IMG/VR virus record: IMGVR_UViG_3300031566_000284
Location: 1 to 28,536 of that record
Length of the DNA stretch: 28,536 nt
From: a virus
Reading direction: 5' to 3' (one strand)
Both the position numbers and the translations under genes were made by a program. Within the stretch, counting starts at the first letter, position 1; every line of letters starts with the position of its first letter. Below the pieces are notes generated by a model. That model saw only the letters and a list, made by a program, of their open reading frames with translations. It was not told the DNA's origin and searched no databases. Of this stretch, positions 3,982-25,476 are shown one piece after another.

Positions 3982-3983
3982 TC

Positions 3984-4807: not shown

Positions 4808-4832
4808 GTCTCGTTCTCCTCAATCTGTAAGA

Positions 4833-4886
4833 CTATGGGGGGCAGGCCGGCCGGTCTGGGCAGAGCGAAAAGCCCGCCCCCCATAG
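4833..4886 (-). repeat. Large hairpin (11-bp inverted repeat) downstream of the major capsid gene
   Basis: CTATGGGGGGC at 4833-4843 and its exact complement at 4876-4886 flank a 32-base loop, in the 99-base gap between the major capsid stop and the next start. In the minus-strand mRNA it forms a very stable stem with a possible inner GGGC/GCCC stem. No U-run follows, so it is not a canonical intrinsic terminator. It could protect the abundant capsid mRNA or partly uncouple the downstream genes. Confidence 0.7.
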
Positions 4887-4906
4887 AACAGCAGTCCCCT
4901 ATCTCC

Positions 4907-7232: not shown

Positions 7233-7407
7233 CTCAGTTCCTTTCTCCGATTTGTAAAGCAGGAATTTCCTTCGGTTGGCCGCTCGTCAGCGGTCAACGA
7301 GTGAGATTTCTCGAACGAAAAGCCGTCGAAGTTCTGTCGGCTGTTCTTCCTCGTCGTCTCGCTCCGTTGACACAAGCACCACCTCCTTCGGGGGTGTCCG
7401 GGCCAAC

Positions 7408-7443
7408 AAAAAAGCGGCCCGGCAACTTTCGTTGCTGGACCGC
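7408..7443 (-). terminator. Intrinsic terminator in the leader of the scaffold/capsid genes
   Basis: On the minus strand the left arm GCGGTCC-A-GCAAC, loop GAAA and right arm GTTGC-C-GGGCCGC form a stem of 12 pairs with one mismatch. It is followed directly by six T. It lies about 85 bases after the expected start of the promoter at 7534-7561 and 175 bases before the scaffold start. Just past the T-run is GGCCCGG, which could pair with CCGGGCC of the right arm. Confidence 0.85.
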
Positions 7444-7533
7444 TGGGGTCTCTACTTATTTAGGCCGCTGATGGGCGCTTGGCCCGGTCGCGAGGACTCA
7501 ATGGGCCGAGGTATTCAGTTGTCAACTAATACC

Positions 7534-7561
7534 AGTATAGCATGGAGACGAAGCCTGTCAA
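7534..7561 (-). promoter_or_regulatory. Sigma70-type promoter P2 upstream of the scaffold gene
   Basis: Minus strand TTGACA (7561-7556), 16-base spacer, TATACT (7539-7534). Both boxes are near consensus. Transcription should start near 7527 and run into the terminator at 7443-7408, then the scaffold and capsid genes. Confidence 0.75.
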
Positions 7562-7709
7562 GGGCCTCGCCTCCATTTCTTGCCTCAACTGCCTCGCCGC
7601 ACCGAGCCTTGCCAAACCAGGACAAGCCAAAGTCTACCCGATCATGCCTTGCCGCACCGCTCCTGTGGATTGGACTACTACCCTATTATACACTAAGTCC
7701 ACAGAAGAG
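7562..7709. other. Non-coding control stretch between the Com-like gene and the scaffold leader
   Basis: Together with 7233-7561 this makes a 477-base gap with no convincing gene on the minus strand. It holds two tandem promoters, one terminator and a near-perfect 14-base direct repeat (plus strand GCCTCGCCGCACCG at 7591-7604 and GCCTTGCCGCACCG at 7646-7659). The repeats lie between the two promoters and could be operator sites. Only trivially short peptides with start codons are present. Confidence 0.6.
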
Positions 7710-7713
7710 TCAA
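7685..7713 (-). promoter_or_regulatory. Sigma70-type promoter P1 with consensus -10 box
   Basis: Minus strand TTGACT (7713-7708), 17-base spacer, TATAAT (7690-7685). The -35 box overlaps the last codon and stop of the Com-like gene. It is the upstream member of a tandem pair that restarts transcription after the sugar block. Confidence 0.75.
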
Positions 7714-7910
7714 CCTCTTTTCTTTACCTCCCTCGCTGGGGGCCTACCATTCTCGAACTCCCAGATCACCAGGCGACCACACTTCCCGCAAACATGCTCT
7801 ACAGATCCCTCCGCTTTGACGAGCATCTCACGGAACAGCAGACGCCCACACTGGCAGCGCATCGTGCGCCAGCGGGTCTTCTCTTTCGGCTCTAGTTCGC
7901 TAGCGCGCAT
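7710..7910 (-). CDS. Com-like zinc-ribbon protein
   Basis: 66 aa. ATG 7910 overlaps the 3' end of the GT gene; an internal ATG at 7862 would give a 50 aa product beginning MRCQCGRLLFRE. The core, MRCQCGRLLFRE then a second knuckle CGKCGRLVIWEF, is the layout of Mu Com: two CxxC-type knuckles about 25 residues apart with LLF after the first. Com is a small zinc protein that binds mRNA and activates translation of the Mu DNA modification gene mom. Com-like proteins are common in phages and usually have no known target. It is the last gene of the sugar block. Confidence 0.68.
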   Translation of the reverse strand: MRASELEPKEKTRWRTMRCQCGRLLFREMLVKAEGSVEHVCGKCGRLVIWEFENGRPPAREVKKRG

Positions 7911-8661
7911 CGGCTTTGTCCACCGTCAGGTGCTTGCAGATCGTCGGGACATACCAGGCCCGGTAGCCCGCCCTGAAGGCCTCCAATGCGAAGCCCACGT
8001 CCTCCTGCCGCCCCCTGGCGTCTGTTTGCCACCGCGCCGCCAGGAGCAAGTCGCGGGAATACCAGCAGACGGCCCCCGCCGCGAGGCAGGCTTCATGTGT
8101 GGGGTCATGTGGGTCGCCGCTTCGTGGCTCGCGCCCTCCGCTGCCGCCGCCGACCTGCATTCGTTCTTGCGCCACCGGAAGGGGCCGGAAATGGCTCACC
8201 AGGCCACCCTGCGTTGCGACCTCTCGGAGCTTGAAGACATTCCAGTATCTCCCATCGGGGCTGTTTCGCACCAAGCCGGCGGCCCAATCCTTCTGGCTGC
8301 CAACCAAGTCCTGAAGAAGCCGAGAGGGCGCCGCGATATCGGAATCCACGGAGAGCAGGCCATCACAGCCAAGGCCTAGGGCAGTTTCGGCCAAGATGTT
8401 GCGCATGGTCGCTAGGCGGCCGTATTCTATCCTCCCATTCTCCCGGCTTCTGTTGTAATGCGGGCCGGGAATCGTGACCTCTACGACTGCCCCTTCAACG
8501 GCAGGCCCGATGGGCAATGGCGTTTGCCACTTAGAGATTCGCTCGTCGCAAACAAAGGCCCAGCGGAGTTCGAGTCCCGTCGTGTCCAGCCGCTCCAGGC
8601 TGCGGAACCACGGCTCTATAGTCCAGCGGTCATGAACGATGCCGCCGATAGCTACTCTCAT
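7900..8661 (-). CDS. GT-A fold glycosyltransferase (GT2-like)
   Basis: 253 aa. GGGAG precedes ATG 8661, which overlaps the stop of the small upstream gene (ATGA). The start is MRVAIGGIVHDRWTIEPWF. The nucleotide-sugar binding acid motif appears as DGLLSVDSDIAAP at about residues 100-112 (DSD in place of DxD). Later there is YSRDLLLAARWQ and RQEDVGFALEAFRAGYRAWY, resembling the ED-type catalytic segment of GT-A enzymes, and KHLTVD at the end. It would transfer a sugar from a nucleotide sugar to an unknown acceptor. It is the last enzyme of the sugar block. Confidence 0.72.
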   Translation of the reverse strand: MRVAIGGIVHDRWTIEPWFRSLERLDTTGLELRWAFVCDERISKWQTPLPIGPAVEGAVVEVTIPGPHYNRSRENGRIEYGRLATMRNILAETALGLGCDGLLSVDSDIAAPSRLLQDLVGSQKDWAAGLVRNSPDGRYWNVFKLREVATQGGLVSHFRPLPVAQERMQVGGGSGGREPRSGDPHDPTHEACLAAGAVCWYSRDLLLAARWQTDARGRQEDVGFALEAFRAGYRAWYVPTICKHLTVDKADAR

Positions 8662-8786
8662 ATTACGATCTCCCGCTCAATGCGCCTCTCAATGTTGCGC
8701 TTAGTTATCGGACGCGCTTTCCGTGCGATTGTAGCCGCCTTCCGCCGCCGATACTCCAGGTAGCGCGCTTGGTAGTCGTCACTCAT
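8658..8786 (-). CDS. Small highly basic protein, 42 aa
   Basis: ATG 8786 lies inside the end of the upstream methyltransferase gene, and its TGA overlaps the next ATG (ATGA), so it fills the gap exactly. The peptide starts MSDDYQARYLEYRRRKAAT and is an Arg/Lys-rich amphipathic helix ending RRIEREIVI. The precise fit between neighbours is the main evidence that it is translated; the ribosome site is weak. Function unknown. It may be an adaptor or RNA-binding peptide, or serve mainly to couple translation to the GT gene. Confidence 0.6.
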   Translation of the reverse strand: MSDDYQARYLEYRRRKAATIARKARPITKRNIERRIEREIVI

Positions 8787-9396
8787 GCGGATCTCTTCGC
8801 AGCTTCGCCGCCGCCTCGCTGGTTGGCGCCCGCCTCAGCAGCTCCCCCGGCGGAAAGTGCGCCGTCTGAATCGGCAGTATGTCGCGCCCATCAGCGAATC
8901 CCAAGGGCCCCTGCCACGACGCCCTCCATTCCTCATAGCCGATGTGCTTGGCGGCCATTTCCGGGTCATGTTCCTTGTAGGCCAGTAGCTTCCAGTAGAG
9001 GCGAAAGGCCGTATGTTCCATCTCGATTGTTATGAAGGTTGCCGGGCTGTAGTAATACCAGGCATGCCCCGGCCGGAAATACTCCATGTTCTCCGGGTGC
9101 CAGCAGGTGCGGTGGGTTGGGTCTGACCAGGCTGCGGGGTTATACACCATGTTTGGCGTCTCTACCTCGCAGATCGCCCCGTGGCAGCAGACGCGCCACA
9201 TCTCGCCCATCGAGTGCATCTTGTCGCGGAGATGCTCGAAGACGTCCGAGGCGAAAACCTGCTCCACAGAACCGTCCTCCCAGGGCCAGGGTTCGTTCAG
9301 GTCGCAAACTCTATCTATCCCGATCAGAGGCATGATGTCCACATTCTCCCAGCCTGGGCGCAAATCGGTTCCGCAACCTAGATTCAGCTTGAGCAT
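8779..9396 (-). CDS. Class I SAM-dependent methyltransferase
   Basis: 205 aa. GAAGGGG precedes ATG 9396. Motif I reads KLNLGCGTDLRPGWENVDI at residues 3-21, giving the Gly-rich SAM loop and the Asp at the end of strand 2. A motif IV region follows (QVFASDVFEHL) and then SDPTHRTCWHPENMEYF. This LNLGCG...GWxNVD opening is typical of small methyltransferases in polysaccharide clusters. It may methylate a sugar or a sugar-nucleotide made by neighbouring enzymes. Its start overlaps the end of a glycosyltransferase remnant. Confidence 0.78.
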   Translation of the reverse strand: MLKLNLGCGTDLRPGWENVDIMPLIGIDRVCDLNEPWPWEDGSVEQVFASDVFEHLRDKMHSMGEMWRVCCHGAICEVETPNMVYNPAAWSDPTHRTCWHPENMEYFRPGHAWYYYSPATFITIEMEHTAFRLYWKLLAYKEHDPEMAAKHIGYEEWRASWQGPLGFADGRDILPIQTAHFPPGELLRRAPTSEAAAKLRRDPHE

Positions 9397-9518
9397 ATCA
9401 CCCCTTCCTCACGCATATCGTTGTGTAGACCCCGCCACCGCAGCGCGCGGCCGAGGTAGAGCATGTGCTGCTCGACGCCGCCGAGGGCCATCACGGACTG
9501 GAGGAGGACGATCCTCAC
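9384..9518 (-). pseudogene. Remnant of a GT4-type glycosyltransferase (N-terminus only)
   Basis: GTG 9518 overlaps the previous stop (GTGA), with GAGAGG upstream, so the stub can still be translated. The first about 33 residues are a textbook GT4 N-terminal Rossmann opening: RIVLLQSVMALGGVEQHM, then LYLGRALRWRG. The frame then leaves the family pattern and ends after 44 codons inside the next methyltransferase gene. A full enzyme would need about 300 more residues. A deletion has joined the first helix directly to the leader of the methyltransferase gene. The intact GT4 in this window (12276-13265) has a comparable opening but is not the same sequence. Confidence 0.62.
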
Positions 9519-9754
9519 TTTTGGCCTCTCATCAGACACCAGCACGCGTAGCAGATCTCATGCTCCAACGGTTCCTCCACCGGCACCCACTCCTGGCTGT
9601 CATTGTCGCGCTTGCGGCCGCAGACGGCGGTCTCTTCATCGGCCATCGCGTGGACGCAGCCTTGGCGGTCGGGGCGCGGGACGCAGCGAAGGCGGGCGTA
9701 GTTGACAGTGCCAGGATAAGATGATAGACTCTTCACAATGGAGGCCACAGTCAT
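9515..9754 (-). CDS. Cysteine-rich small protein, copy 1
   Basis: The conserved core reads YARLRCVPRP, then CVHAMADEE, then SQEWVPVEEPLEHEICYACW. It aligns over its length with the protein at 11895-12086 (same SQEW, PLEHE and CxxCW positions). The start is unclear: ATG 9754 and GTG 9736 are in frame, but the segment matching the paralogue's ATG (near 9710) reads as a GTC codon. That segment overlaps the -35 box of the plus-strand HNH promoter. The stop overlaps the next start (GTGA). Probably a zinc-binding protein of unknown role, translationally coupled to a glycosyltransferase (now a stub). Confidence 0.55.
   Translation of the reverse strand: MTVASIVKSLSSYPGTVNYARLRCVPRPDRQGCVHAMADEETAVCGRKRDNDSQEWVPVEEPLEHEICYACWCLMRGQK
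9702..9730 (+). promoter_or_regulatory. Sigma70-type promoter for HNH gene 1
   Basis: TTGACA (9702-9707), 17-base spacer, TAGACT (9725-9730). The start would be near 9737, 16 bases before the HNH ATG. It faces against the late genes. Confidence 0.75.
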
Positions 9755-10268
9755 GCTCCGGTACCCGAAGAAGAGTAGGCCCGGCCCGCTCCACCCCCTC
9801 TGGAAGGGCGGCCGCAAGACCGATGAACGCGGATACGTTCGAATCTGGATCGGTTGCAGGAAATGGAAGTATGAACATCGGCTAGTGATGGAGCGGTTGT
9901 TGGGCCGGCCGTTGCTACGATCTGAGTCAGTCCACCACAAGAATGGCAATCGAGGCGATAACCGGTCTGGGAATCTAGAACTCTACTCGCCCTCCAGCCA
10001 CATGGTCCACCACTGGCGAGAGGGAGATATTGAGGCCTTCGGACGACCCCCGCGCCAGCAACCAGTATGTCACCCCGACCGCCCCTATTATTGCAAAGGC
10101 ATGTGCAAGCAGTGCTATAGCCGACGAAGTGCGCGCGAATGGGCGCTTGCGAATCCGGAGCGGAGGCGACAGCAAGGTCGCCTTTACTACCAGCGGCATC
10201 TCGAACAAGAGCGCGCCCGAAGCAGGATAAAGAGCCGGTGTCAGCGCCTGCAGAAGAAACTCGCGTAG
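9753..10268 (+). CDS. HNH homing endonuclease 1 (antisense to late genes)
   Basis: 171 aa. ATG 9753 has GGAGG seven bases upstream, better than the in-frame ATG at 9738. The N-terminal half has the HNH_3 layout: LWKGGRKTDERGYVRIWIG, EHRLVMERLLGRPLL, SVHHKNGNRGDN, then SGNLELY. The second half holds a CHPDRPYYCKGMCKQCY zinc-type motif and a basic helical tail for DNA binding. Free-standing HNH endonucleases of this type cut genomes lacking the gene and spread by repair. It fits exactly between the stop of a methyltransferase (10272) and the cysteine-rich gene, on the opposite strand, with its own promoter. About half its residues match HNH 3 (15848-16438). Confidence 0.88.
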   Translation: MLRYPKKSRPGPLHPLWKGGRKTDERGYVRIWIGCRKWKYEHRLVMERLLGRPLLRSESVHHKNGNRGDNRSGNLELYSPSSHMVHHWREGDIEAFGRPPRQQPVCHPDRPYYCKGMCKQCYSRRSAREWALANPERRRQQGRLYYQRHLEQERARSRIKSRCQRLQKKLA

Positions 10269-10271
10269 CGC

Positions 10272-11147
10272 TCATAGTTTCTGCACCCTCATCGTAGTAT
10301 AGTTCCCGAATGCAGGGGGCACTAGGCACTCCACTCGTAGGCCTGGATCGTCATCATGTAGTAACCGCCGCAGGTCTTGTTCCGTGAACGCATGCAGGTG
10401 CATGGACCAGCCATCGTCCCACGGAGTGGTTGTCAGTAGAGTTCCTCTTGTAGCATCAAGCAGTGCATCGCAGGTTGGTTGCAACAGCCGGGTCGGCACG
10501 TGCTCAAGCGTCTCTTGGCAGCAGACGATATCGAATGGCTCAAGGACTGGTAGGACTTCATGTAGTGGCCCGGCGCGGAAGCCGAGATACCTCCCCCTAT
10601 CCTCTGGCTTCAACCATGACACTCGCTCCTCGATGATCGGCTCCATGCCTCCTGCTATGTCGCAACCGCCAGCCCTGTGTCCGCGTTGTAGGAGTTCACA
10701 GAGAAGGGTGCCCTGCCAGCAGCCCGCGTCGAGGGTAGCGGGGTGATCAATGCTCAGGTGCTCCCGCTCCTGATCTACCAGGGCAAGGAACTGCGCCCAC
10801 CTCGCCGCCTGGCCACACTCAAACCTTATCCCGCCTCCCTCCAGGCGAATAACCTTGTCGTCAAACACATTCCCCCGGTGCAGCTGGAAGATCAAGTCGT
10901 TGAAGGCGGCCCAGGCCTCGAATGGCATAGCGTCAGCGGCTTCTCGCAGCGTGGACACTTCGGCGTCGTCTGTCCCCCCGTCTGCATATAAGACAGGCCT
11001 CACTACATCCCACAAAGCTATTTGCTCTTCATCCTTGGGCTGGAATAGCACGGCGCGTCTAAGGGCCTGCCGCTGCAAGGGAGTGCAAGCTGAGAGCGTC
11101 TCCACAACTCGTTGTGCTAGATCGCATCCTGTTAGACTGGTAGACAT
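10272..11147 (-). CDS. Class I SAM-dependent methyltransferase with helical N-domain
   Basis: 291 aa. GGAG lies ten bases before ATG 11147, which overlaps the upstream GT-D gene by 16 bases. Residues 1-130 are mostly helical with no recognised family. The methyltransferase fold begins near residue 137: TLDAGCWQGTLLCELLQRGH (motif I, GxxxG form), then GCDIA, and FDIVCCQETLEHVP at about residue 205, the usual E-HV motif before strand 5. The TLLTTTPWDDGW segment follows. This resembles O-methyltransferases of glycan clusters more than DNA methyltransferases, which have an N/DPPY motif that is absent here. Confidence 0.75.
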   Translation of the reverse strand: MSTSLTGCDLAQRVVETLSACTPLQRQALRRAVLFQPKDEEQIALWDVVRPVLYADGGTDDAEVSTLREAADAMPFEAWAAFNDLIFQLHRGNVFDDKVIRLEGGGIRFECGQAARWAQFLALVDQEREHLSIDHPATLDAGCWQGTLLCELLQRGHRAGGCDIAGGMEPIIEERVSWLKPEDRGRYLGFRAGPLHEVLPVLEPFDIVCCQETLEHVPTRLLQPTCDALLDATRGTLLTTTPWDDGWSMHLHAFTEQDLRRLLHDDDPGLRVECLVPPAFGNYTTMRVQKL

Positions 11148-11902
11148 TGATCTGCCGCTCCCGCATGTCGATAGTGTTGCATCGTCCCCTCCGGACTATC
11201 CGGGCAACAGGTATTCAGCCGGTATTGCCAATGGGGTTCGTTGAATTGGAGGTTGTGATCGGGGGCATGCCCCCAGTCTATGCCGATTTTGCCCAACCCC
11301 TTCGCGCAGTCGCAGACGGGAAGTGCCCATACCCCAAGGCTTGCCATAATCACCCTCGCTTCTGAGGCCTCTATCGCCCGGAAGATTCCCCTTAGTTCGC
11401 GTTCGTTTGATGGCGTTGACTGACCTCGATAGACCTTGGCCTTCTCGCCCAGGCCCAGCGGGCGTAGATAGTCAGCTAGCCACCTCTCCATAGGTTCACC
11501 AATCAAGAAGAGTGGCTCCTGCCTCAGCACCCGCTCGACAAAGCTGCGTCGAAGACCCATGTGTAGATTCACCCAGGCATAGGCGCTTCGCTCATAGAGC
11601 GCAGGTAGCAATCCGAATGCTTCCATCCAGAAGCCCAGCCAGGGGTCTTGATGCCAGCCCACCCAGTCGGCATTGCGGATTGCCTGAATCGAGCTTCGCC
11701 GAAGCATCCCCAAGTCGCTAGTGGAGGCCACGCGGTTCTCTACGTGGCTAAGTGGAGCATGAGCCATACCCAATATCTTTAGTTCGCCATCGCCAAGTCT
11801 TACTAGCGACCAAGGCCGGCCCTCTTCGAGTGCTGAGTAAAGGCTGGTCAGCGTCTCGCGGATAGGCTGCGCGATCGGTTCCTTCGGACTTGCCTCAGTC
11901 AC
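11132..11902 (-). CDS. GT-D fold glycosyltransferase (DUF1792-like), copy 3
   Basis: 256 aa. Starts at GTG 11902, overlapping the cysteine-rich gene. The N-terminal motif SLVRLGDGELKILG at residues 32-45 is the hallmark of GT-D enzymes, whose DxE motif binds the metal and nucleotide sugar. A SNERELRGIFRAI segment, a strand VIMASLGVWALPVC and IGIDWGHAPD fit the C-terminal half of this fold. GT-D enzymes extend glycans on surface glycoproteins in some bacteria. Two further GT-D-like genes lie upstream (13268-14050, 14056-14826), more similar to each other than to this one. Confidence 0.72.
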   Translation of the reverse strand: MTEASPKEPIAQPIRETLTSLYSALEEGRPWSLVRLGDGELKILGMAHAPLSHVENRVASTSDLGMLRRSSIQAIRNADWVGWHQDPWLGFWMEAFGLLPALYERSAYAWVNLHMGLRRSFVERVLRQEPLFLIGEPMERWLADYLRPLGLGEKAKVYRGQSTPSNERELRGIFRAIEASEARVIMASLGVWALPVCDCAKGLGKIGIDWGHAPDHNLQFNEPHWQYRLNTCCPDSPEGTMQHYRHAGAADQCLPV

Positions 11903-12086
11903 TATGTTTGATCCTCCAGCACAGAATGCAGACCTCGTGCTCCAGGGGTGCTTCGACTTCTTCCCACTCCTGGCTCTTGTTCGTTGGCGCGGCCCCGCAT
12001 AGGGCTTGAGCTTCAGTGTTCATCGCGTGCACCGGACTCGTAAGCTCTGGCTTACTCCGGCAACAGATACGAGCATATTCCGTCAT
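11895..12086 (-). CDS. Cysteine-rich small protein, copy 2
   Basis: 63 aa. GGAG lies ahead of ATG 12086; an in-frame TTG two codons upstream is less likely. The sequence MTEYARICCRSKPELTS, then HAMNTEAQALCG, then SQEWEEVEAPLEHEVCILCW matches copy 1 (9515-9754) throughout. Four or more cysteines in CC, C and CxxCW positions suggest metal binding. It overlaps the start of the GT-D gene that follows, just as copy 1 overlaps a glycosyltransferase stub, so the pairing with a glycosyltransferase is repeated. Function unknown. Confidence 0.68.
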   Translation of the reverse strand: MTEYARICCRSKPELTSPVHAMNTEAQALCGAAPTNKSQEWEEVEAPLEHEVCILCWRIKHSD

Positions 12087-12100
12087 CCTCAATCTCCAGG

Positions 12101-12129
12101 TTGTCTCGCGTAGGCAGCATAGCTTTATT
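12101..12129 (+). promoter_or_regulatory. Possible weak promoter of the HNH relic
   Basis: TTGTCT (12101-12106), 17-base spacer, TTTATT (12124-12129). It is in the same relative place as the strong promoters of the two intact plus-strand HNH genes, but decayed. Supported only by that analogy. Confidence 0.3.
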
Positions 12130-12147
12130 CATGACCCAACCCCTACG

Positions 12148-12306
12148 ATTATCGCAAAAACGCCGATTTGCCATCCCGACCGGAAGCATCGTGCCCTCGG
12201 CCTCTGCGACCAATGTTACGAAAGAATAATGTCTCGCAAGTGGCGACGAGAACACGCTGGCTATCATCGTCGGTATTATCCTCGGCTGTCCAGCACTGCC
12301 ATATAA
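12148..12306 (+). pseudogene. Relic of an HNH homing endonuclease (zinc-motif domain only)
   Basis: The plus-strand frame reads CHPDRKHRALGLCDQCY, then MSRKWRREHAGYHRRYY, and stops at 12306. This is the second domain of the HNH proteins at 9753-10268 and 15848-16438 (CHPDRP...GxCxxCY plus basic helix). The HNH domain itself is missing, and no good start codon or ribosome site is in frame. The relic lies between the cysteine-rich gene copy 2 and the GT4 gene, whose 3' end it overlaps by 31 bases. That is the same kind of site occupied by the intact HNH genes. A short independent protein is possible but less likely. Confidence 0.6.
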
Positions 12307-13265
12307 AGATTACGAATCTTCCTACACTGTATTTCCAGACTATGCTCCCGCTCGATGTAGGCTCTTATCGCCTTCCGTTCCGTGAGAAAGTCTTCTTTCT
12401 GCGCACTCCGAAACTGGGACAGAACGAACTTGGGCGACGGGTCCGAAGCATCATGCGGCCAACGCTGCGCCGCCCATTGGTCGCGACTAAGGGCCTCCAG
12501 AAGATGGGGCTGGACAAGATGGCCGTAGGCCGGTCGGTCGGCGTAGGCTGTGCCCGAACTACCAACGATGACGAGACGCCCCGCCGCTGCCGCCTCCATC
12601 GCTGTATTCGCTGCCGCGAAGACGGTGCGATAGCGATAGATGGTATCTTCTGTCGGCTTGTAGTCGAACCACGGAGCACATTCCTGTGGGGGCCAATCCG
12701 GCAGTTCGGTTTCGCCTACGGTAGTCCCATAGCAATCCACCTTGATCGTAGGGTCAAGGCTGCAAACCTTCTTGACATTGATCGCCTTGAATGCTCGCCC
12801 GACAAAACACGATCCCTCGCCCAGCTCCTTCCGGAAGGGGAACTTCTCCAGGTTGACCCAGTTGTAAATGGTCGTCACCGGTGGTAGGTTGAGATACTCA
12901 ACACAGATGATGCCGGCCCAGGGCAGTTCGGGCATTGGTTGTGTCACGCCATGCATGGTGAATACCGCAGGAATCCGTAGCTCCTTCGGTAGGCAGGCTG
13001 ACCACTGAATGTCGAAGAGGTCGCCTTTCAACTCGTCAGCCATATAGACGAGAAAGTCCTCGTAGACTTCGCCCGGCCCCATCATGATTATTCTATCCGA
13101 GGGGACGCCACACTGGCCGTAAAGTGTTGCCCGACCATAATGACCCCATCCGGACGCCAAGAGCCAGCACTCATCCCCATTGTCAAGAAGCCAGCGCATT
13201 AGCTCCCCCATGCGCCGCTCACATCCCCCGCCCTGGAGAATGCCGTAGGCGAAAATGATTCGCAT
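12276..13265 (-). CDS. GT4-type glycosyltransferase
   Basis: 329 aa. GGAAGG precedes ATG 13265, three bases after the upstream stop. It begins MRIIFAYGILQGGGCERRM then GELMRWLLDNGDECWLLASG, the classic GT-B N-terminal Rossmann opening. The middle has VFTMHGVTQ and VTTIYNWVNLEKFPF (the GT4 N-V-x-x-x-F linker), then GSCFVGRAFKAINVKKV. The C-terminal domain has VFAAANTAMEAAAAGRLVIVG, equivalent to the E-x(7)-E donor-binding region. It would use a nucleotide sugar to extend a glycan. Length is a little short for GT4 but no domain appears missing. Confidence 0.78.
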   Translation of the reverse strand: MRIIFAYGILQGGGCERRMGELMRWLLDNGDECWLLASGWGHYGRATLYGQCGVPSDRIIMMGPGEVYEDFLVYMADELKGDLFDIQWSACLPKELRIPAVFTMHGVTQPMPELPWAGIICVEYLNLPPVTTIYNWVNLEKFPFRKELGEGSCFVGRAFKAINVKKVCSLDPTIKVDCYGTTVGETELPDWPPQECAPWFDYKPTEDTIYRYRTVFAAANTAMEAAAAGRLVIVGSSGTAYADRPAYGHLVQPHLLEALSRDQWAAQRWPHDASDPSPKFVLSQFRSAQKEDFLTERKAIRAYIEREHSLEIQCRKIRNLYMAVLDSRG

Positions 13266-13267
13266 CT

Positions 13268-14050
13268 TCACCCTTCCTCCAGATACCACGAGTGGACTTG
13301 CTTCCAGCGATCCCCCGTCTCGTCCCAGGGCGAATGCAAACGATCAAGAGCTTGGCCCATGTCCAAGGCGGGGATCGCATACCTCTCTGCAATCTCAACG
13401 CAGAGGTGGGCTGCTCGGGGGCCGGCGCCGATCAGTGCTATATCCGGTCGCCAATTGGCAAGGCAGGACGTCTCGTAAAGTCTATTGATGTCAGCCAAAG
13501 CTTTCCCGGAGCCGGACAAGCCATTCTCCAGCACGATCGGCGTGACTGTAGCTGGCTTCCATTCGTGAGGGCCGGGGATGTAGGCCTTGAGGTCGGTCGA
13601 CAGATCGCCACTCTCCAAGGCCTTTGCGACCTCCACAGCGTGGTTATTTACCACTAGCACTCGCCGTTTCTCCATTAGACCCCAGAGCCAGAGGTCGAAC
13701 AGCAGGTAGAACACCACAAGCCGATCTACGATCTGAGCGTCAGGCCGCAGCTTGATATCCCACAAGCGGAGTGTCGCCTCGGTTTTCGGCCTCATCTGCG
13801 GCCAGCGCGCGCAAGGGCCGGAATGAGCGATGCCAATGAACCGCAACCGCTCTATCGCTTCAGCCAATTGCTTCGCCGCCGACTCGGCCTCGCCCGTCAC
13901 CCCCATCGTGGACAGCCAATGCCAGGTCTGAAAACCCTTGCCCGCCCAGAGAAGACCGGCCTCACTTTCGCACAGAGTAGCGAGCGAAGCCGGTTCCTTC
14001 CTTTCCATTGCCAGCGCAAGGTCTACCGCTACTCCAGCCGTATCTAGCAT
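13268..14050 (-). CDS. GT-D-like glycosyltransferase, copy 2, altered DxE motif
   Basis: 260 aa. GGAGGAAGG lies nine bases before ATG 14050. It aligns along its length with the upstream gene: RKEPASLATLCESEAGLLW against the SLISMADGESAVLW of copy 1. Shared segments are LRLWDIKLRPDA, FYLLFDLWLWGLMEKRRVLVV, LIGAGPRAAHL and the YLEEG end. The DGE expected in GT-D enzymes is ESE here, so metal or donor binding may be changed. It probably arose by tandem duplication followed by divergence. The pair may act as a complex or on successive linkages. Confidence 0.65.
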   Translation of the reverse strand: MLDTAGVAVDLALAMERKEPASLATLCESEAGLLWAGKGFQTWHWLSTMGVTGEAESAAKQLAEAIERLRFIGIAHSGPCARWPQMRPKTEATLRLWDIKLRPDAQIVDRLVVFYLLFDLWLWGLMEKRRVLVVNNHAVEVAKALESGDLSTDLKAYIPGPHEWKPATVTPIVLENGLSGSGKALADINRLYETSCLANWRPDIALIGAGPRAAHLCVEIAERYAIPALDMGQALDRLHSPWDETGDRWKQVHSWYLEEG

Positions 14051-14055
14051 TGTCT

Positions 14056-14826
14056 CTATCCTTCCTCCTGATAGAGCTTGAATATCGTAGCTGGCTCGCT
14101 AGGCGTATGAAACCACGAGAATACGCAGCCGAGTTCTATCACTGGCATGCTGTGCATCTCGGCCAAGGCCACAGCTAAATGCGCCGCCCGTGATCCTGCA
14201 CCCAGCAAACAGAGGTCGGGCTTCCAAGGCAGATTGCCCGCGTCGACAAGGCATTGGGCCGAGCCTGCAAGTCCATCCGCCAGCATTATTCCGGTGGTCT
14301 CTGCCTGCCGCCACCATTGACCGCCGGCAAAGGTCGCCAATCCGACTGGAGGCTGCCGGCCATTCAGCGCGGCGACGACCTTCTCGGCCTCGCTCGTTAC
14401 TACAAGCACTTTGCGATTTTCCATCAGCGACCAGAGCCAACAGTCGAAGAGAAGATAGAAGGAAATGAGGGAGTCACCAATCAGTGCCTCGGGCTTGGGG
14501 CGAATATCCCAGAGATACAAGGCCTCCCTCAGCCGAGGTCCCATGCCCGGTTGACTCGCTTGTGTCCCGGAACGCGGCAAACAGACGATATCGCATTTGG
14601 GGATCGCTGCCGCCAATTGTTCTGCCACGCCCAAACGATCCTCGGCCGAGAATCCCCAGGCGCTCAGGTAATGGAACGATCCGAATCCCTTCGCTCCCCA
14701 TAGCACTGCCGACTCGCCATCCGCCATCGAAATAAGGCTGCATGGTTCTTTTTGCTCAATCGCCTGCGCTAGCCGACATGCCACGCGGGCCGTATCCGCC
14801 TGCTCATTGGGGAAACCATAGATCAT
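14056..14826 (-). CDS. GT-D-like glycosyltransferase, copy 1
   Basis: 256 aa. AAGGAGA precedes ATG 14826; a longer upstream frame lacks a ribosome site. The metal-binding region reads CSLISMADGESAVLWGAKG, with the DGE expected of GT-D enzymes. Further segments are LYLWDIRPKPEALIGDSLI, FYLLFDCWLWSLMENRKVLVV and CLLGAGSRAAHLAVALAEM. These give alternating strands and helices of a Rossmann-like fold. It is followed after five bases by its paralogue. Its last codons, for EEG, form the ribosome site of that gene. Substrate unknown. Confidence 0.68.
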   Translation of the reverse strand: MIYGFPNEQADTARVACRLAQAIEQKEPCSLISMADGESAVLWGAKGFGSFHYLSAWGFSAEDRLGVAEQLAAAIPKCDIVCLPRSGTQASQPGMGPRLREALYLWDIRPKPEALIGDSLISFYLLFDCWLWSLMENRKVLVVTSEAEKVVAALNGRQPPVGLATFAGGQWWRQAETTGIMLADGLAGSAQCLVDAGNLPWKPDLCLLGAGSRAAHLAVALAEMHSMPVIELGCVFSWFHTPSEPATIFKLYQEEG

Positions 14827-15446
14827 TGTGCTCTCCTTAGAAATCCGCCCCGACATAGGGTCATGCCAAATCTCTCCCTAGCGAGATCCGGGGCAAACTC
14901 AGGGTGTTGAGGTAGCCAGTCGGCAAGCGCCTCCGCTGGCCCCCGGTCTATCCCAGGGACTTTCCAGGGATGATTGATATGTGTATCTTCGACGATCAAG
15001 TAGCTTCCGGGCGTAATTAGCGGACCATAAAGATCCAGCTCCCGGAGAACATGGTCGGCCTTGTGGTCGGAATCCAGAATCGCCATGACGGGCGAGCAAC
15101 CTCCCAACCATTCCTGTACCGCTACTAGCCTTTCTGGCGAAGTCGTATTCCCAAAGTGGTACGTCAATGCCGGATGCTGAGGATAGACGGGCTGGGGCGC
15201 GATATCTATCGTGAGCACCCGCCCATCGCCAATCATTCCCAGCACCGCCGCGAGCCAGGCAGAGGTTCCGCCCGATGACGTACCGCACTCAATCACGGCT
15301 GCCGGACGAACGTCATGGAGCATCTCTTGGTAGATCCAAAGGTCACACGGGGTCTTCCAGATCGGTGTCCCCAGCCAAGACATCTGGCAGATGAGGCCCG
15401 ACTGATAGAACTCCATCATATAGGCATCAATGACTTCTTGGTTCAC
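14823..15446 (-). CDS. CmcI-family methyltransferase / hydroxylase
   Basis: 207 aa, starting at GTG 15446 with AAGGGGA eleven bases upstream. It has the full CmcI pattern (cephalosporin hydroxylase family, which includes rhamnosyl O-methyltransferases). Segments are WLGTPIWKTPCDLWIYQEML, then AAVIECGTSSGGTSAWLA (SAM loop), then TIDIAPQP, then MAILDSDHKADHVLRELDLY, and YLIVEDTHINHPW. A metal-dependent O-methyltransferase acting on a sugar fits the neighbourhood. The ATGA-type overlap with the next gene links it to the GT-D pair. Confidence 0.83.
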   Translation of the reverse strand: MNQEVIDAYMMEFYQSGLICQMSWLGTPIWKTPCDLWIYQEMLHDVRPAAVIECGTSSGGTSAWLAAVLGMIGDGRVLTIDIAPQPVYPQHPALTYHFGNTTSPERLVAVQEWLGGCSPVMAILDSDHKADHVLRELDLYGPLITPGSYLIVEDTHINHPWKVPGIDRGPAEALADWLPQHPEFAPDLARERFGMTLCRGGFLRRAQ

Positions 15447-15483
15447 CGCGCTACGATCCCCTTCCCGACACCGCGCAAGGCCC

Positions 15484-15750
15484 TCACGACATTGACGTTC
15501 CCGGCGGTATCGTTCTGCTCGGCACCAAGATCTTACTCTGTGGTGGCGCCTTCCGCCATTGAAGGCCTATCTTCTTCATCATACACTCCATGCAGATCAC
15601 CGCGACGAAGACCTCTCTCTTTCCGTTTACAACTTCGGCCTTGCCAAATACTTGCGCACCGGGAGGCCGCACCTCCTTGCCGCATACCTGGCAGGCCGTC
15701 GGGGACGGCTGCCCGGACGCTGCCTCGGGCTTGCCTCCGTTATCGCTCAT
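15484..15750 (-). CDS. Small zinc-ribbon-like protein
   Basis: 88 aa. GGAGG lies seven bases before ATG 15750; a GTG two codons upstream is possible. It has one CQVCGKEVRPPG knuckle at about residue 20 and a second ICMECMMKK near residue 54, spaced as in a treble or ribbon zinc site with a strand-rich middle (AEVVNGKREVFVAV). The ends are Pro/Ser rich. It lies between HNH gene 3 (divergent) and the CmcI-type gene. It is not clearly related to the two cysteine-rich paralogues. Function unknown. Confidence 0.6.
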   Translation of the reverse strand: MSDNGGKPEAASGQPSPTACQVCGKEVRPPGAQVFGKAEVVNGKREVFVAVICMECMMKKIGLQWRKAPPQSKILVPSRTIPPGTSMS

Positions 15751-15797
15751 CTCCACTCCTCCGGGTTCGCCTTGCCGGCAATGGCGGCCGGACTAGC

Positions 15798-15826
15798 TTG
15801 TCCTGGCGCACCATATCTGCTATACT
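15798..15826 (+). promoter_or_regulatory. Sigma70-type promoter for HNH gene 3
   Basis: TTGTCC (15798-15803), 17-base spacer, TATACT (15821-15826). The transcript would start near 15833, just ahead of the TAGGAGGAAA ribosome site. Confidence 0.68.
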
Positions 15827-15847
15827 GCCTATAGGAGGAAAATCGCG

Positions 15848-16438
15848 ATGCCACACAGAGATCAGCATGGAATGTGGAAAGGCGGCCGCTACAAAGATTC
15901 CCATGGCTATGTTCATATATGGGTCGGGCCGCGATGCTACAAGTTAGAGCACCGTCTCGTAATGGAGAATGCCCTGGGCCGGACGTTGCTTTCTTCGGAA
16001 ACCGTCCATCATCTAAACGGTATGACGACGGACAATAGACCAGAGAATCTAAGCTTGTTCCAGTCCACCAATGCCCACACGAAGACTCATTGGTTGGAAG
16101 CCGGTGTGGATGGTTTCGGCCGCGCTCACAAGAAGAAACCGATGGCGACATGCCATCCCGACCGACCCCATAATGCTCGTGGGCTCTGCGGTCCCTGCTA
16201 CTGGCGTATGATGGGTCGCAAATATCGTCTGGAAAGACCTGAGCGACTCCGGCGGATTCGCCAGAGATGCCAAGAGAAAGACCCAGTTGCCTTTCTGGAA
16301 AAGCGCCGTGTCGCCGCCAAGAAGAAATATCATGAGAATCCTGCAATAATGCGAGCCAGGAGACGAATCTATTACCAAGCACATATTGAACAGGAACGTG
16401 AGCGCGCTCGCAATTATCAACGACAACGGCGATATTAG
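15848..16438 (+). CDS. HNH homing endonuclease 3 (antisense to late genes)
   Basis: 196 aa. AGGAGGAAA lies six bases before ATG 15848. HNH_3 layout: MWKGGRYKDSHGYVHIWVG, EHRLVMENALGRTLL, ETVHHLNGMTTDNRPENLSL with the catalytic His pair and Asn. Then comes CHPDRPHNARGLCGPCYWRM, a zinc motif, and a long Arg/Lys-rich helical tail ending ERARNYQRQRRY. It ends four bases into the 3' end of the CgeB-like gene and starts close to the zinc-ribbon gene, filling an intergenic site on the opposite strand. It is a selfish mobile gene. Its own promoter and strong ribosome site let it be expressed independently of the late genes. Confidence 0.88.
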   Translation: MPHRDQHGMWKGGRYKDSHGYVHIWVGPRCYKLEHRLVMENALGRTLLSSETVHHLNGMTTDNRPENLSLFQSTNAHTKTHWLEAGVDGFGRAHKKKPMATCHPDRPHNARGLCGPCYWRMMGRKYRLERPERLRRIRQRCQEKDPVAFLEKRRVAAKKKYHENPAIMRARRRIYYQAHIEQERERARNYQRQRRY

Positions 16439-17364
16439 TCCCAGGCATCAGGATTGGCCTTTCCGCTAATAGCTTTGACAATCCGATCCAATCGTTTTCC
16501 ATAAGTGTGGAATCGCCTCACGAACTCCATTCCGGTCTTCGCCTTCGTCGCCGCGGCGCAGGCATTGTCCAGCAGGTCCTCGCCCCATTCGACGGCCTGT
16601 TCCGGGGTATCCACCCAGACCATGTGCTTGTGATTCACGAACCCCAGGGCCCCATAAGCGTCGGAATATGGGGCCAAGAATGGTTTGCCGCAGGCCAATG
16701 CCTCGAAGGTGCGCATCGAGGTCATTACCGTCTTCGCCCGCCCGTCCATGCCGCTCCGCTGATTGTTCTGGCCTAGCACTATTCGCCCATGTCGATACTG
16801 CTCAGCCGAGGTATAGCAAGAGGTACCGCCGCGCCAGAATGGTTGCAGTTCCGGGTAGGGCGGTATCTCATAGGAGAAGATCGCCATGCTGTAGCCAGCC
16901 CGGGCCAAAGGCAAGATCATCGTCTTTGTCGCCCATTTTCTGGCCTCCCATTGAGTGTCATACCAATTGCAACTCAGGGCTATGTCGGCCGCATCGTCTG
17001 CTAGCGGCATCGGCACGTGCATCTTCAGCGGCTCCGCCGCCAGGGGTAGCCAGAAGACGCGGTTATGCTGAAGGGCAGCTCGGTAATTCGGAATGCAGCA
17101 GCGGTCACTGGTGAAGACGAAGTCAGCCATGCGCGCCTCGGCCAGAAACGGGTGATAGGCGTTCGGGTCTTCGATAGTCCACCAGCAGAAGGGCTTGCCC
17201 GCCTTCTCGGCCGCATCCCGCGCAGCGGCGGTCGCTGAAAGCCCGTCATGCGTCGCCATGTTCATCCCCAGAACGAAGTCGGCCTCCGCCGCCGAGCCTA
17301 CGAACTCAGCATATGGCTCGCAGTAGGGCTGGAGGAAGCCGAAGGTGGGTGCGAAAACTCTCAT
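16435..17364 (-). CDS. CgeB-like glycosyltransferase (GT-B fold)
   Basis: 309 aa. GAGGAGAG precedes ATG 17364; the in-frame upstream ATG at 17400 lacks a site. It reads MRVFAPTFGFLQPYCEPY, FCWWTIEDPNAYHPF, ADFVFTSDRCCIPNYRAA, WLPLAAEP, DIALSCNWYD. The C-terminal motif is TVMTSMRTFEALACGKPFLA, followed by LGFVNHKHMVWVDTPEQAVEW. This is the layout of the CgeB / DUF3880 plus Glyco_trans_1_2 group. In CgeB-like enzymes the R-x-F-E-x-x-A-C-G motif binds the donor. CgeB acts in spore coat glycosylation, and relatives are frequent in phage and polysaccharide clusters. Confidence 0.82.
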   Translation of the reverse strand: MRVFAPTFGFLQPYCEPYAEFVGSAAEADFVLGMNMATHDGLSATAAARDAAEKAGKPFCWWTIEDPNAYHPFLAEARMADFVFTSDRCCIPNYRAALQHNRVFWLPLAAEPLKMHVPMPLADDAADIALSCNWYDTQWEARKWATKTMILPLARAGYSMAIFSYEIPPYPELQPFWRGGTSCYTSAEQYRHGRIVLGQNNQRSGMDGRAKTVMTSMRTFEALACGKPFLAPYSDAYGALGFVNHKHMVWVDTPEQAVEWGEDLLDNACAAATKAKTGMEFVRRFHTYGKRLDRIVKAISGKANPDAWD

Positions 17365-17389
17365 CTCTCTCCTCGATGCCTCATGTGCT

Positions 17390-17560
17390 TCAAGGGGCAA
17401 GGCTTTGTCCCCATATCTTGAAAGGGCCTAGATAGATCCGGTATCCCAGTCCTCCGAACCAACGGCAGGAGATGCCGAATGCCAGTTGATAAGGAAAGAA
17501 AACCATGCCTCCTAATGCAAACGACGTTCTCCACTCCCAAAAATCATATGCACGCTTCAT
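17390..17560 (-). CDS. Small membrane-type protein, 56 aa
   Basis: ATG 17560 overlaps the previous stop as TGATG, and the frame ends 26 bases before the next start. The peptide begins MKRAYDFWEWRTSFALGG, continues with a hydrophobic aromatic stretch (MVFFPYQLAFGIS) and ends YLGPFKIWGQSLAP. One membrane-associated segment is likely. The overlap and the tight fit between GT genes are the main evidence. Function unknown; it might anchor neighbouring glycosyltransferases to the membrane. Confidence 0.6.
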   Translation of the reverse strand: MKRAYDFWEWRTSFALGGMVFFPYQLAFGISCRWFGGLGYRIYLGPFKIWGQSLAP

Positions 17561-17754
17561 CAGCCATCCGTCTCTATGACCTTCACTGTCCTAGCGAACC
17601 ACCAACCCCCAAGGCGTCTCATCGTAGATTCCCGTATGAGCTTGAGATTGACGAAGCAGTCAAGGGCCATTAGGCCAACCCATGCCAAGGCGGACACCTT
17701 GATCTCAATAATCTCTCCATCCTCTAGATAGGCCGTGATTGTCTTTGGTCTCAT
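17560..17754 (-). CDS. Small hypothetical protein, 64 aa
   Basis: ATG 17754 overlaps the GT2-like stop (ATGA), with GGAGAGG upstream. It starts MRPKTITAYLEDGEIIEIKV (a beta hairpin). A moderately hydrophobic helix follows (ALAWVGLMALDCFVNLKLI), then RRLGGWWFARTVKVIETDG. The layout of strand, helix and strand suggests a compact domain rather than a membrane protein. No family recognised. It is coupled to both neighbours by overlap, so it belongs to the sugar block operon. Confidence 0.65.
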   Translation of the reverse strand: MRPKTITAYLEDGEIIEIKVSALAWVGLMALDCFVNLKLIRESTMRRLGGWWFARTVKVIETDG

Positions 17755-18659
17755 CTGTAAGCCCTCTCCATCCAGCGGCCGATAGTCGTGGTCACGAAAG
17801 TCACGAACTCCGGCCCATGCTTGAGCTGGCAGTAGACATTGTTCGCGTCATAGTCCTGCGGATGGTTCGACAGCCCCAGCCGCGTCAAGTAGTAGTGGTG
17901 GTAGACCAGTGATCCGAAATGAATCAGCACATTCCACGATGCCTGGTGGAACCGGTAGGCCTCCTCGGTATCCTCGAAGTTTTGGCGGCCCGGCATGTCC
18001 GGGTCGTAGGGATACAACAGCCCATCGCGCCTGATGCCGACCTCCTCCAACGCCGCCCAACGCTTCACCGCCGGATGCGTCAAGCCCGGCCGCACCCGGT
18101 GCGCCCTCCGCCATACCCGTGCCAACCGGTTTATCTCCGCCTGGAACATCGCCGCGTTCTGGAGCTGATTGTCGTTCACCACATAAGGCAGCACCGGCCT
18201 CGGCGTACGAAACTGCCCACCCCCCGTCGCCAGCGCCGGCCCCATTATCGCCGCCCTCGCCCCGTGCGGATGCTCCATGAAGTCTATGATCGGCTTCAGC
18301 CAACCGAGCGGCCCCAGGGAATCCTGCGCCGCCGGGAACACATGATCGGTATGCACTTCCACCACATACTCCGGCGCGAACCATTCATGCAGGAGCTGAT
18401 AGCCCCGGTTCCGGCCCCGGGCGATGCCAAGATTTTCATCCTGCCAATCCACCCTTACCCGCTCCTCGGCCGCCTCCAGCCGCTGGAGCATCTCGACCGT
18501 GCATGGACAGGTGCTGCCATTGTCCACTACCACAAGCCGCCAATCGTAGAGCTGTAGATCACTCCCGAGGAGACTGTCTATTGCTTGCCTTGTCGCCTGC
18601 CAGTGAGTCGGGCACTGCGCCAGATTGCACGTCAGGAGATTCACTCCTACCTTGACCAT
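17751..18659 (-). CDS. GT2-like glycosyltransferase
   Basis: 302 aa from ATG 18659, the first start giving the family opening MVKVGVNLLTCNLAQCPTHW. The frame is open for about 130 further bases upstream (see zinc-ribbon entry). Motifs are WRLVVVDNGSTCPC (nucleotide binding Asp-Asn-Gly-Ser), then DENLGIARGRNRGYQLL, then VVEVHTDHVFP, in the place of the DxD motif. This is the standard GT2 order. The C-terminal half is long, with RHQAS-type tails not seen in short GT2 enzymes, and NFEDTEEAYRFHQA fits the ED catalytic segment. It is the first enzyme of the sugar block. Confidence 0.8.
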   Translation of the reverse strand: MVKVGVNLLTCNLAQCPTHWQATRQAIDSLLGSDLQLYDWRLVVVDNGSTCPCTVEMLQRLEAAEERVRVDWQDENLGIARGRNRGYQLLHEWFAPEYVVEVHTDHVFPAAQDSLGPLGWLKPIIDFMEHPHGARAAIMGPALATGGGQFRTPRPVLPYVVNDNQLQNAAMFQAEINRLARVWRRAHRVRPGLTHPAVKRWAALEEVGIRRDGLLYPYDPDMPGRQNFEDTEEAYRFHQASWNVLIHFGSLVYHHYYLTRLGLSNHPQDYDANNVYCQLKHGPEFVTFVTTTIGRWMERAYR

Positions 18660-18993
18660 GCGCCATCGTTTCTCTGCCCATTCGGCCTTCTCTAATGCGC
18701 CTACGCATTGGTATTGATCGCGGTGGTGATAGCCTCGCTTGGACCGCCGGCGCACATACCAGGCGAAGCGTAATGTCCGGCGTGCCCCGATAAGCCGTCT
18801 CCGATATCTCTGCTATCCAGCCGCAGTCGAAGCATCTGAATCTGCGTTGGCTTGACCGCGCATTCTCCCGCGACACAGTAGCCCGCCCTAGACAGGCCGG
18901 GCAAACTCCCCGATGACGCAAGGCCCAAGCCGCCGCCCCCACCGGGTCCGTTCTCTGAAGCTCTGTGATCTTTTGATCTATTCGGTCTGTCAT
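18559..18993 (-). CDS. Zinc-ribbon protein, possibly frameshifted
   Basis: 144 aa as read, ATG 18993 overlapping the protease stop, with AAGGAAGGAG upstream. The N-terminal part is convincing: GVCPACLGRATVSREN, then RRFRCFDCGWIAEISETAYRG, a two-knuckle zinc ribbon. After about residue 75 the frame becomes low complexity and runs 100 bases into the GT2-like gene. In the GT frame just upstream of its ATG the sequence reads FAWYVRRRSKRGYHHRDQY, then QCVGALEKAEWAEKRW, which looks far more like a natural continuation. A one-base slip, mutation or assembly error near 18790 would join them. Role unknown. Confidence 0.55.
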   Translation of the reverse strand: MTDRIDQKITELQRTDPVGAAAWALRHRGVCPACLGRATVSRENARSSQRRFRCFDCGWIAEISETAYRGTPDITLRLVCAPAVQARLSPPRSIPMRRRIREGRMGRETMAHGQGRSESPDVQSGAVPDSLAGDKASNRQSPRE

Positions 18994-20177
18994 TTCACCA
19001 GCTCCTTCCTTTCTCCCCAGCCTCCGATGCTATAGCCAGTCAGGCGTCCCGCCTTCACATCCGACCAGGCCTGGTCGTCATTTACCTTAACAGCCAGCAC
19101 CCAACTCCCCTTCTTTACTGGGTTCTCGCCCATGTTCATGTCCTGCGGCGCGAGGTAACACTCAACAATGTCTGCCGCAAGCGGCTCTTTATGCTGCCGC
19201 CCGATGGCCGCCTTCTGCTCTTTCCACCGCGCCATGAAATCGTGGCAAGCCTCCTCGATCTCCTCCGCCTTGATAAAATCGCCCTGGCTATCCGTCCGGC
19301 GCGGCGTCCCCGGCTCCAGTACGATGCCATAGACGAGTCGCTTCTCCTTGTCCGCCTTCAGGATCGGGCAGAAAAGCTCCCAGGATGCCCCAGGAGAAGC
19401 GGTTCGGCCCCGGGAGAGCCTGCACCATAGCTTGCCGCTTGAATTCGCAATGTGGGCGAACATGACGCGGCTCTTGCCGCCCCGGAACCAGTCTTCTTTG
19501 GCCTTTGCCACCCACGCGCCGTCGGCCTGCTGCCGATACTGCGTCTTCACTGCCGCCCAGGCCGTCGCGTGCGCCTTCGCTTCATCGCCTTCATACTCTT
19601 GCCAAGCCGCATTGAAGGCCGCCCGCCATATCTCCTGCCCATGCTTCGGGAGCTTCTTCACCGTGGCTGGCAGATCGGCGAGGGTAGCATAGGGTTTGGA
19701 GACCGGTTCGTGGGTCTTTTCCATTTCCGCGGCCGCCTCGAAGGCCCCATCATGCTCCTGGCAGTGCGTCTCAGCCGCCGGGGCCATCCACTTGTCCTTG
19801 GGGTAGCGAAAGGCCTGAATCTCGCTACTGCCGTCCTCACGCACGCCGAAGATCACGTCTATCGGCTTACCGTCATGTTGTAGCTTTGCGTTCTGCCGCC
19901 GCATCCGCTGATACCCCGTCGGAGGCTTCAGCCGACAGGCATGCTCATTCGGGTAGGGCTTGAATATCTCGACATAGGCCTTCTCGAAATCTTCGTCGGT
20001 TGCCATATCAGTTCTCCTTTGAATCACCTTCTCCAGCGGCGTGATATGGCGCATTCCCCGCCTCTTCATTTCAGCGGCCAGCAGATCGTGCACCGCCTTC
20101 AGCCGCTCTGGCGTCAACTTGCTCTCGGCCGGTGAGATAGGCACATTTACGTGGACTTCGGAGACGGTGGGGTTCAC
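18990..20177 (-). CDS. ChaB/XkdF-type head maturation protease region protein
   Basis: 395 aa from GTG 20177, whose codon overlaps the previous stop (GTGA). A second start at ATG 20006 has a stronger AAAGGAGA site and would give 338 aa. Both may be used. Domain order: a short N-terminal segment (PTVSEVHVNVPIS, then LLAAEMKRRGMRHITPL), then FKPYPNEHACRLKPPTGY. A ChaB-like domain follows (ATLADLPATVKKLPKHGQEI then RAAFNAAWQEYEGDEAKAHA). The C-terminus is XkdF-like: LVYGIVLEPGTPRRTDSQGD, ECYLAPQDMNMG and RLTGYSIGGWG. XkdF-type proteins are predicted serine proteases of prohead maturation. Position between portal and scaffold agrees. Confidence 0.8.
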   Translation of the reverse strand: MNPTVSEVHVNVPISPAESKLTPERLKAVHDLLAAEMKRRGMRHITPLEKVIQRRTDMATDEDFEKAYVEIFKPYPNEHACRLKPPTGYQRMRRQNAKLQHDGKPIDVIFGVREDGSSEIQAFRYPKDKWMAPAAETHCQEHDGAFEAAAEMEKTHEPVSKPYATLADLPATVKKLPKHGQEIWRAAFNAAWQEYEGDEAKAHATAWAAVKTQYRQQADGAWVAKAKEDWFRGGKSRVMFAHIANSSGKLWCRLSRGRTASPGASWELFCPILKADKEKRLVYGIVLEPGTPRRTDSQGDFIKAEEIEEACHDFMARWKEQKAAIGRQHKEPLAADIVECYLAPQDMNMGENPVKKGSWVLAVKVNDDQAWSDVKAGRLTGYSIGGWGERKELVK

Positions 20178-25351: not shown

Positions 25352-25357
25352 AGATAT

Positions 25358-25446: not shown

Positions 25447-25476
25447 ACCGCTTTGCGCTCAGGGGAGGCGGCCTGT

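Follow-up and report, generated by a model that had tools for sequence, protein, structure and literature searches.

The window, meaning the whole stretch of 28,536 bases analysed here, is an incomplete virus record (IMGVR_UViG_3300031566_000284) of an uncultivated soil phage. Its minus strand carries, in this order, TerS, TerL, a Mu-type portal, an XkdF protease with ChaB, a block of glycosyltransferase (GT) and methyltransferase (MT) genes, a putative scaffold, a decoration-type protein, an E-type major capsid protein (MCP), adaptors and the start of the tape-measure gene. The block and its borders are given below, with percentages referring to relatives collected from IMG/VR by TerL, portal, GT2a, CgeB and MCP searches and alignments.

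18990–20324, minus strand: XkdF-type head maturation protease with a ChaB domain, the upstream border (PF14550 8e-31, PF06150 5e-18)
17751–18659, minus strand: GT2b, a GT2-type core gene (PF00535 4.8e-9; found in every relative reaching that far)
16435–17361, minus strand: CgeB-like GT-B, a core gene (PF13524 2.8e-13; 43–62% in relatives)
14823–15446, minus strand: MT of the CmcI or rhamnosyl O-methyltransferase type (PF04989 8.6e-45; PDB CmcI 1.3e-5)
14056–14856, minus strand: GTD3, the conserved GT-D copy (PF22882 2e-16; 67–83% in relatives)
13268–14050, minus strand: GTD2, a GT-D paralogue of GTD3 (PF22882 4e-19; 43% to GTD3)
12276–13265, minus strand: GT4-type GT (PF13439 0.0012, below the curated cut-off; 41–48% to relatives, C-terminal motifs conserved)
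11132–11902, minus strand: GTD1, a divergent GT-D-like, variable gene (PF22882 8e-16; 25% relative in G001)
10272–11147, minus strand: MTb, class I (PF08241 3.9e-6; 37–70% in relatives)
9384–9514, minus strand: GT4 stub, N-terminus only (G001 and L093 have this GT4 intact, and the stub opens with its first ~30 residues)
8779–9396, minus strand: MTa, class I (PF08241 3.7e-4, PHROG methyltransferase 2.4e-6; 59% in G001, 43% in L101)
7900–8661, minus strand: GT2a, a GT-A type core gene adjoining the scaffold (weak Anp1 match, 0.018; 41–50% in seven relatives)
6369–7232, minus strand: putative scaffold, the downstream border (position, and 31–46% homologues beside the MCP in relatives)

A preliminary description of this DNA had counted at least seven GT genes of five architectures between protease and scaffold. 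There are exactly seven (GT2, CgeB/GT-B, three GT-D, GT4 and one GT-A) and their coordinates were correct, the GT and MT assignments being mostly confirmed by Pfam profile search. The three MTs, one CmcI-type and two class I, were likewise borne out by Pfam, the GT4 stub is genuine (57% over 30 residues against the intact GT4 of G001, E 2e-8), and most block genes do overlap or nearly abut. The GT-D trio scored 58.5, 69.3 and 60.3 bits, above the curated PF22882 cut-off of 27, and stayed under the NCBIfam NF040628 cut-off of 75. GT2b gave a profile match (4e-4) to PDB 8bz8/8bz4, Listeria RmlT; a PDB sequence search with GT2a and CgeB found no match. The DSD and ED motifs of GT2a are kept across eight sequences, and its AlphaFold model (predicted local distance difference test, pLDDT, 69.5; predicted template modelling score, pTM, 0.76) has a fold that agrees with GT-A enzymes and is closest in the PDB to the collagen galactosyltransferase COLGALT1 (E 5e-8, TM 0.56). 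The CmcI-type gene belongs to the RMNT_CmcI family (PF04989; 153 bits against a curated cut-off of 23.2). Its closest NCBIfam model, the rhamnosyl O-methyltransferase equivalog NF045824, gave 131 bits against a cut-off of 400, and rhamnose specificity is therefore not claimed. Among the phages of the lineage that were found, CmcI was seen solely in the window; the closest bacterial match found is 46%, in a Bryobacterales metagenome-assembled genome, and its relatives (36–46%) are spread over genomes of several phyla, so that no host is indicated.

The block recurs in the same slot across the lineage. With the MCP as lone query no match was obtained in viral contigs; TerL, portal and alignments then succeeded. 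Five contigs besides the window (G001, G002, G009, L101 and L091/L171) span the region from protease to scaffold or decoration gene, while L005, L009 and L090 cover its upstream part and L093, L099, L100 and L172 its downstream part. The lineage comes mostly from one group of metagenomes, G009 and L101 being from others. Block genes occur in all these contigs, and in the five spanning ones, down to about 40% capsid identity, they occupy the same slot; among lineage contigs covering the junction, none was found without the block. L002 and L003, from other assemblies, are 99.6–100% identical to the window protein by protein, and L003, covering protease to GTD3, supports that half of the window assembly. 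GT2b, CgeB and GT2a form the core in relatives that reach it, and the order GT2b, CgeB, GTD3, GT4, MTb, GT2a is repeated in most. The MTs, GT-Ds, sulfatase, nitroreductase and ATP-grasp genes vary between relatives: the G009 block reads GT2b, GT4, a sulfatase-family protein, CgeB and GT2a, that of L101 reads GT2b, CgeB, two MTs and GT2a, and extra genes include a nitroreductase (G001), a second GT4 (G001, L093, L099) and an ATP-grasp protein (L093). L090 has two copies of GT2b, at 6762–7664 and 7604–8497, with 64% and 44% identity to that of the window. An MCP profile search of GTDB genomes found no prophage of the lineage and thus no host, and the block as a whole, searched by megablast, had no match among 50,697 phages.

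Some contigs differ in other ways around the protease. The ends of G009 bear a 114-base repeat, in keeping with a complete genome, and its protease gene runs across them as a single open frame of ~1090 codons (L012:11623–13083 plus L084:1–1926), in which the XkdF protease is fused to a methyltransferase domain of class I and to one resembling an ATP-dependent DNA ligase. L101 encodes in its protease–GT2b gap (3741–5645) a 634-residue repetitive protein rich in Ala, Gly, Thr and Val, possibly a fibre or coat protein.

The preliminary description had proposed comparing genomes that lack the block to see whether scaffold and protease become neighbours, and in distant head modules they are indeed adjacent. 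The XkdF protease gp71 and scaffold-like gp72 of Roseobacter phage RDJL Phi 1 lie one base apart, ORF084 and ORF085 of KPP23 nearly abut, and the corresponding genes of L059 and L060 overlap or abut; the scaffolds in these block-less modules were assigned by position and weak similarity. Because distant modules with the same gene order have protease and scaffold side by side, the comparison favours insertion of the block at this junction.

The ratio of nonsynonymous to synonymous substitution (dN/dS) in block genes is 0.08–0.31, similar to that of structural genes, and indicates purifying selection. The block is thus not a chance assembly, since independent contigs repeat both its genes and their order under such constraint. 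Its alleles are nevertheless sharply divergent beside nearly identical head DNA. G001 and L099 share 99–100% identity over most of the scaffold, decoration, capsid and adaptor genes, with a dS of 0–0.07 in decoration protein and MCP against 0.41–0.46 in GT4 and GT2a; the stretch between GT2a and scaffold cannot be aligned and the break falls at the scaffold start. Between G001 and L005, GT2b has a dS of 0.11, and CgeB, beside an HNH insertion, one of 0.85. Chimeric assembly may lie behind these two breaks, although they sit near gene borders and in different contig pairs. To judge from this divergence next to 99–100% identical head DNA, the block is swapped like a serotype locus.

The remaining genes of the block are small or lie on the opposite strand:

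15848–16438, plus strand: HNH endonuclease, likely mobile (PF13392, HNH_3, 3.1e-7)
12016–12306, plus strand: what is left of a third HNH gene, namely its C-terminal Cys motif (CHPDR..C..C, as in the other HNH proteins here)
9738–10268, plus strand: HNH endonuclease (PF13392, HNH_3, 3.1e-8; 71% opposite-strand homologue in L093, beside GT4)
18559–18993, minus strand: small Cys-containing protein (tblastn 39–59% in L004, L006 and L008; relatives keep its N-terminal part right behind the protease)
15484–15756, minus strand: small four-Cys protein (an open reading frame; a similar short Cys protein precedes GT-D in L090)
7710–7910, minus strand: small zinc-ribbon-like protein with four Cys in the gap from GT2a to scaffold (place conserved in G009 and G002)

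The earlier statement that all genes lie on the late strand therefore holds for the GTs and MTs and fails for two HNH genes and the third remnant. The two intact HNH genes are 63% identical across 137 aligned bases; at the position of the one at 15848–16438, L005 has a homologue, likewise on the opposite strand, and G001 has ~155 bp instead. Two minus-strand candidates were rejected as shadows of plus-strand HNH genes, namely the open reading frame at 15747–16502 and the N-terminal half of that at 9515–9949. The protein at 18559–18993 matched no Pfam family above cut-off. That at 7710–7910 is, we presume, reminiscent of Mu Com; zinc-ribbon-like four-Cys proteins also occupy the GT2a–scaffold gap at L084:6593–6847 and L101:9916–10395. 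A further small-protein motif, CG..W..VE.PLEHE.C..CW, is repeated at 11895–12092 of the window, at the end of 9515–9949 (minus strand) and in G009 (L084:5684–5872); several relatives have it ahead of a GT or HNH gene. Upstream of TerS, the window carries a LAGLIDADG-type (26975–27742, minus strand) and an HNH endonuclease gene (28064–28534, minus strand), which with the HNH genes of the block make this phage rich in homing-type endonucleases. In the ~1.7 kb from TerS to the LAGLIDADG gene (25200–26980) the GC skew is inverted and no gene is convincing.

What the enzymes act on can be approached from what accompanies them. The earlier observation that nucleotide-sugar synthesis genes are missing stood up: the two families tested, NTP_transferase and epimerase, were not found in eight records, G009 among them, in which controls were positive, so that sugar donors would come from the host. 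The block enzymes showed no clear transmembrane segment by hydropathy (maximum about 1.6 over 19 residues) and are taken to be soluble. The thymidylate synthase family PF00303 was not found in eight records including G009, where the control worked; the Tet_JBP (PF12851) search was run without a positive control. The non-structural genes of G009 that were scanned encode a DnaB-type helicase, a RecT-like protein, DUF5131 and small proteins, and no DNA-modification family was seen among the replication-side genes scanned. With soluble enzymes, no donor genes and no detected DNA-modification partners, a protein acceptor is the simplest reading. Two head genes matter here:

5928–6365, minus strand: capsid decoration or cement-type protein (conserved LSPTPTGxE loop; its RDJL phage homologue is a weak Phage_cement_2 match)
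4907–5914, minus strand: MCP, E type (tblastn against annotated MCPs, 33%, E 1e-48)

The decoration-type protein, 48–82% identical across the lineage, has a loop rich in Ser, Thr and Pro (HEPGxLSPTPTGxExxTLDVEALNPW, with LSPTPTG at residues 114–120) that is missing from block-less homologues, and we offer it, speculatively, as a candidate acceptor. Its AlphaFold model (pLDDT 49) was too poor for a fold search.

We consider it probable (about 0.7) that the block is a virion-glycosylation cassette with variable methylation, a reading suggested by the analogous cassette of phage Corndog. The late head operon, the insertion, the selection on its genes and the lack of donor genes and membrane GTs all agree with the glycosylation of virion proteins put forward in the preliminary description; the methyl capping that it added appears variable rather than central. 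The block would be expressed at the same time as the capsid; one of its cytoplasmic GTs, perhaps GT2a, would add the first sugar to a virion protein, GT2b, CgeB, GT-D and GT4 could lengthen the chain with host nucleotide sugars, and the MTs may O-methylate sugars of the chain. Recombination, probably aided by the HNH endonucleases, would swap the enzyme set among close relatives, the outcome being different glycans on the same capsid. GT2a is possibly the enzyme that attaches the protein-linked sugar, its fold being closest to that of COLGALT1, an enzyme that glycosylates protein. COLGALT1 is a GT25 enzyme, and Firecracker, our sequence comparator for the Corndog-type cassette, has a GT25-like protein; this likeness is suggestive only.

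Several points weigh against this reading. The cassette is known here from its genes alone, and its glycans and acceptor are what we infer from them; its position in the late operon speaks to when the enzymes are made rather than to what they act on. The case for the decoration-protein loop is a correlation within a single lineage, and the match of GT2a to COLGALT1 is modest (TM 0.56), many GT-A enzymes scoring alike. Firecracker gp34–36 gave no blastp match to the block GTs and an hhalign probability below 1% in the two pairs tried, and tblastn of CmcI, GTD2, CgeB, GT2a and GT2b against 50,697 phage records found no match. MTs are present, but CmcI is not universal and one relative, G009, has none in the block proper; methyl capping therefore looks like a variable decoration.

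Other roles have to be set against the same evidence. Polysaccharide GTs (TuaG, EpsD and RmlT) match the core GTs with weak scores, and the gene content varies as in polysaccharide loci, as it might if the enzymes acted late in infection on the envelope or capsule of the host, for instance to keep progeny or competing phages from re-adsorbing. Such a role is nonetheless unlikely: membrane GT, flippase, polymerase and lipid-carrier transferase are all absent from a block whose enzymes are soluble by hydropathy, and its place in the head operon is fixed in every relative, from which a surface-modifying gene would gain nothing. Somewhat less probable still is a cargo hotspot, a recombination-prone junction that gathers GT and MT genes through HNH activity without any common pathway. 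It would account for the HNH genes, the GT stub, the HNH remnant, the paralogous GT-Ds and the highly variable extra genes; it fits poorly with the retention of the same three GTs in all relatives reaching them, the recurrence of most others in order and the purifying selection on all tested block genes.

Glycosylation and methylation of the phage's own DNA against nucleases appears the least probable of these alternatives. All block enzymes are cytoplasmic, and modified DNA bases are a target of many phage GTs (cited in PMC12619734). Neither a thymidylate synthase/hydroxymethylase family in the eight records nor a DNA-modification family among the scanned G009 genes accompanies them, however, and a head-operon location would be unusual.

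If the block does glycosylate virions, soil phage particles would wear complex, changeable glycan coats made with their own enzymes and host sugars, which would help to explain the unassigned GTs found beside head genes in environmental phages. Roles of such coats outside an animal host, in stability, surface adsorption or escape from predators and host defences, would become testable, and the mosaic among phages with identical heads would be a natural experiment. A bolder and rather doubtful extension is that the lineage as a whole has a rapidly exchanged, O-antigen-like glycan locus, giving identical capsids different methylated or otherwise altered coats on the conserved decoration-protein loop.

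Among known systems, T4-type DNA glucosylation and hypermodification shares with the block cytoplasmic, phage-encoded sugar transferases, but the block lies in the head operon and has no detected thymidylate synthase/hydroxymethylase family partner. Gtr serotype conversion by temperate phages also relies on phage-encoded GTs with variable alleles; the block differs in having neither membrane GT nor flippase, and its lineage has no GTDB prophage. In the chlorovirus PBCV-1, A064R combines two rhamnosyltransferases with a methyltransferase that caps the capsid glycan, an example of a virus whose own enzymes make a capsid glycan and O-methylate it (PMC7019647). Virus-encoded GTs with methyltransferase capping of a major capsid protein glycan are a likeness by description, although that virus infects eukaryotes and its enzymes are fused in one protein outside a head operon.

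The closest parallel is the Corndog kind. Between portal and protease, cluster O phages such as Corndog have genes for an O-methyltransferase, for two GTs and for a putative N-acetylglucosaminyltransferase; in Corndog all four proteins were detected in infected cells and none in virions, and few capsid peptides were seen in its virions (PMC4351075). Capsid glycosylation is reported for Che8, Corndog and Myrna in PMC12363180, and mycobacteriophage capsid and tail-tube glycans, with a requirement for Corndog gp38, in PMC12363180 and PMC12619734. The counterparts in Firecracker are a TylF-type MT, an unassigned protein, a GT2-like protein and the GT25-like protein. Both cassettes place at least two GT genes and an O-methyltransferase of small-molecule type contiguously on the late strand among head genes beside the protease, and their O-methyltransferases share a weak likeness, both matching Methyltransf_24 (25% identity, E 6e-5). 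Corndog, however, has three GT-type genes and one MT against seven and three here, uses the portal/protease rather than the protease/scaffold slot and belongs to a different capsid lineage; the block also has HNH genes and internal allele exchange. A kind of cassette known from a few mycobacterial phages would thus occur here in a larger version, differently placed, and by this analogy the block most likely functions like that of Corndog while being distinct from it in size, enzyme families and slot.

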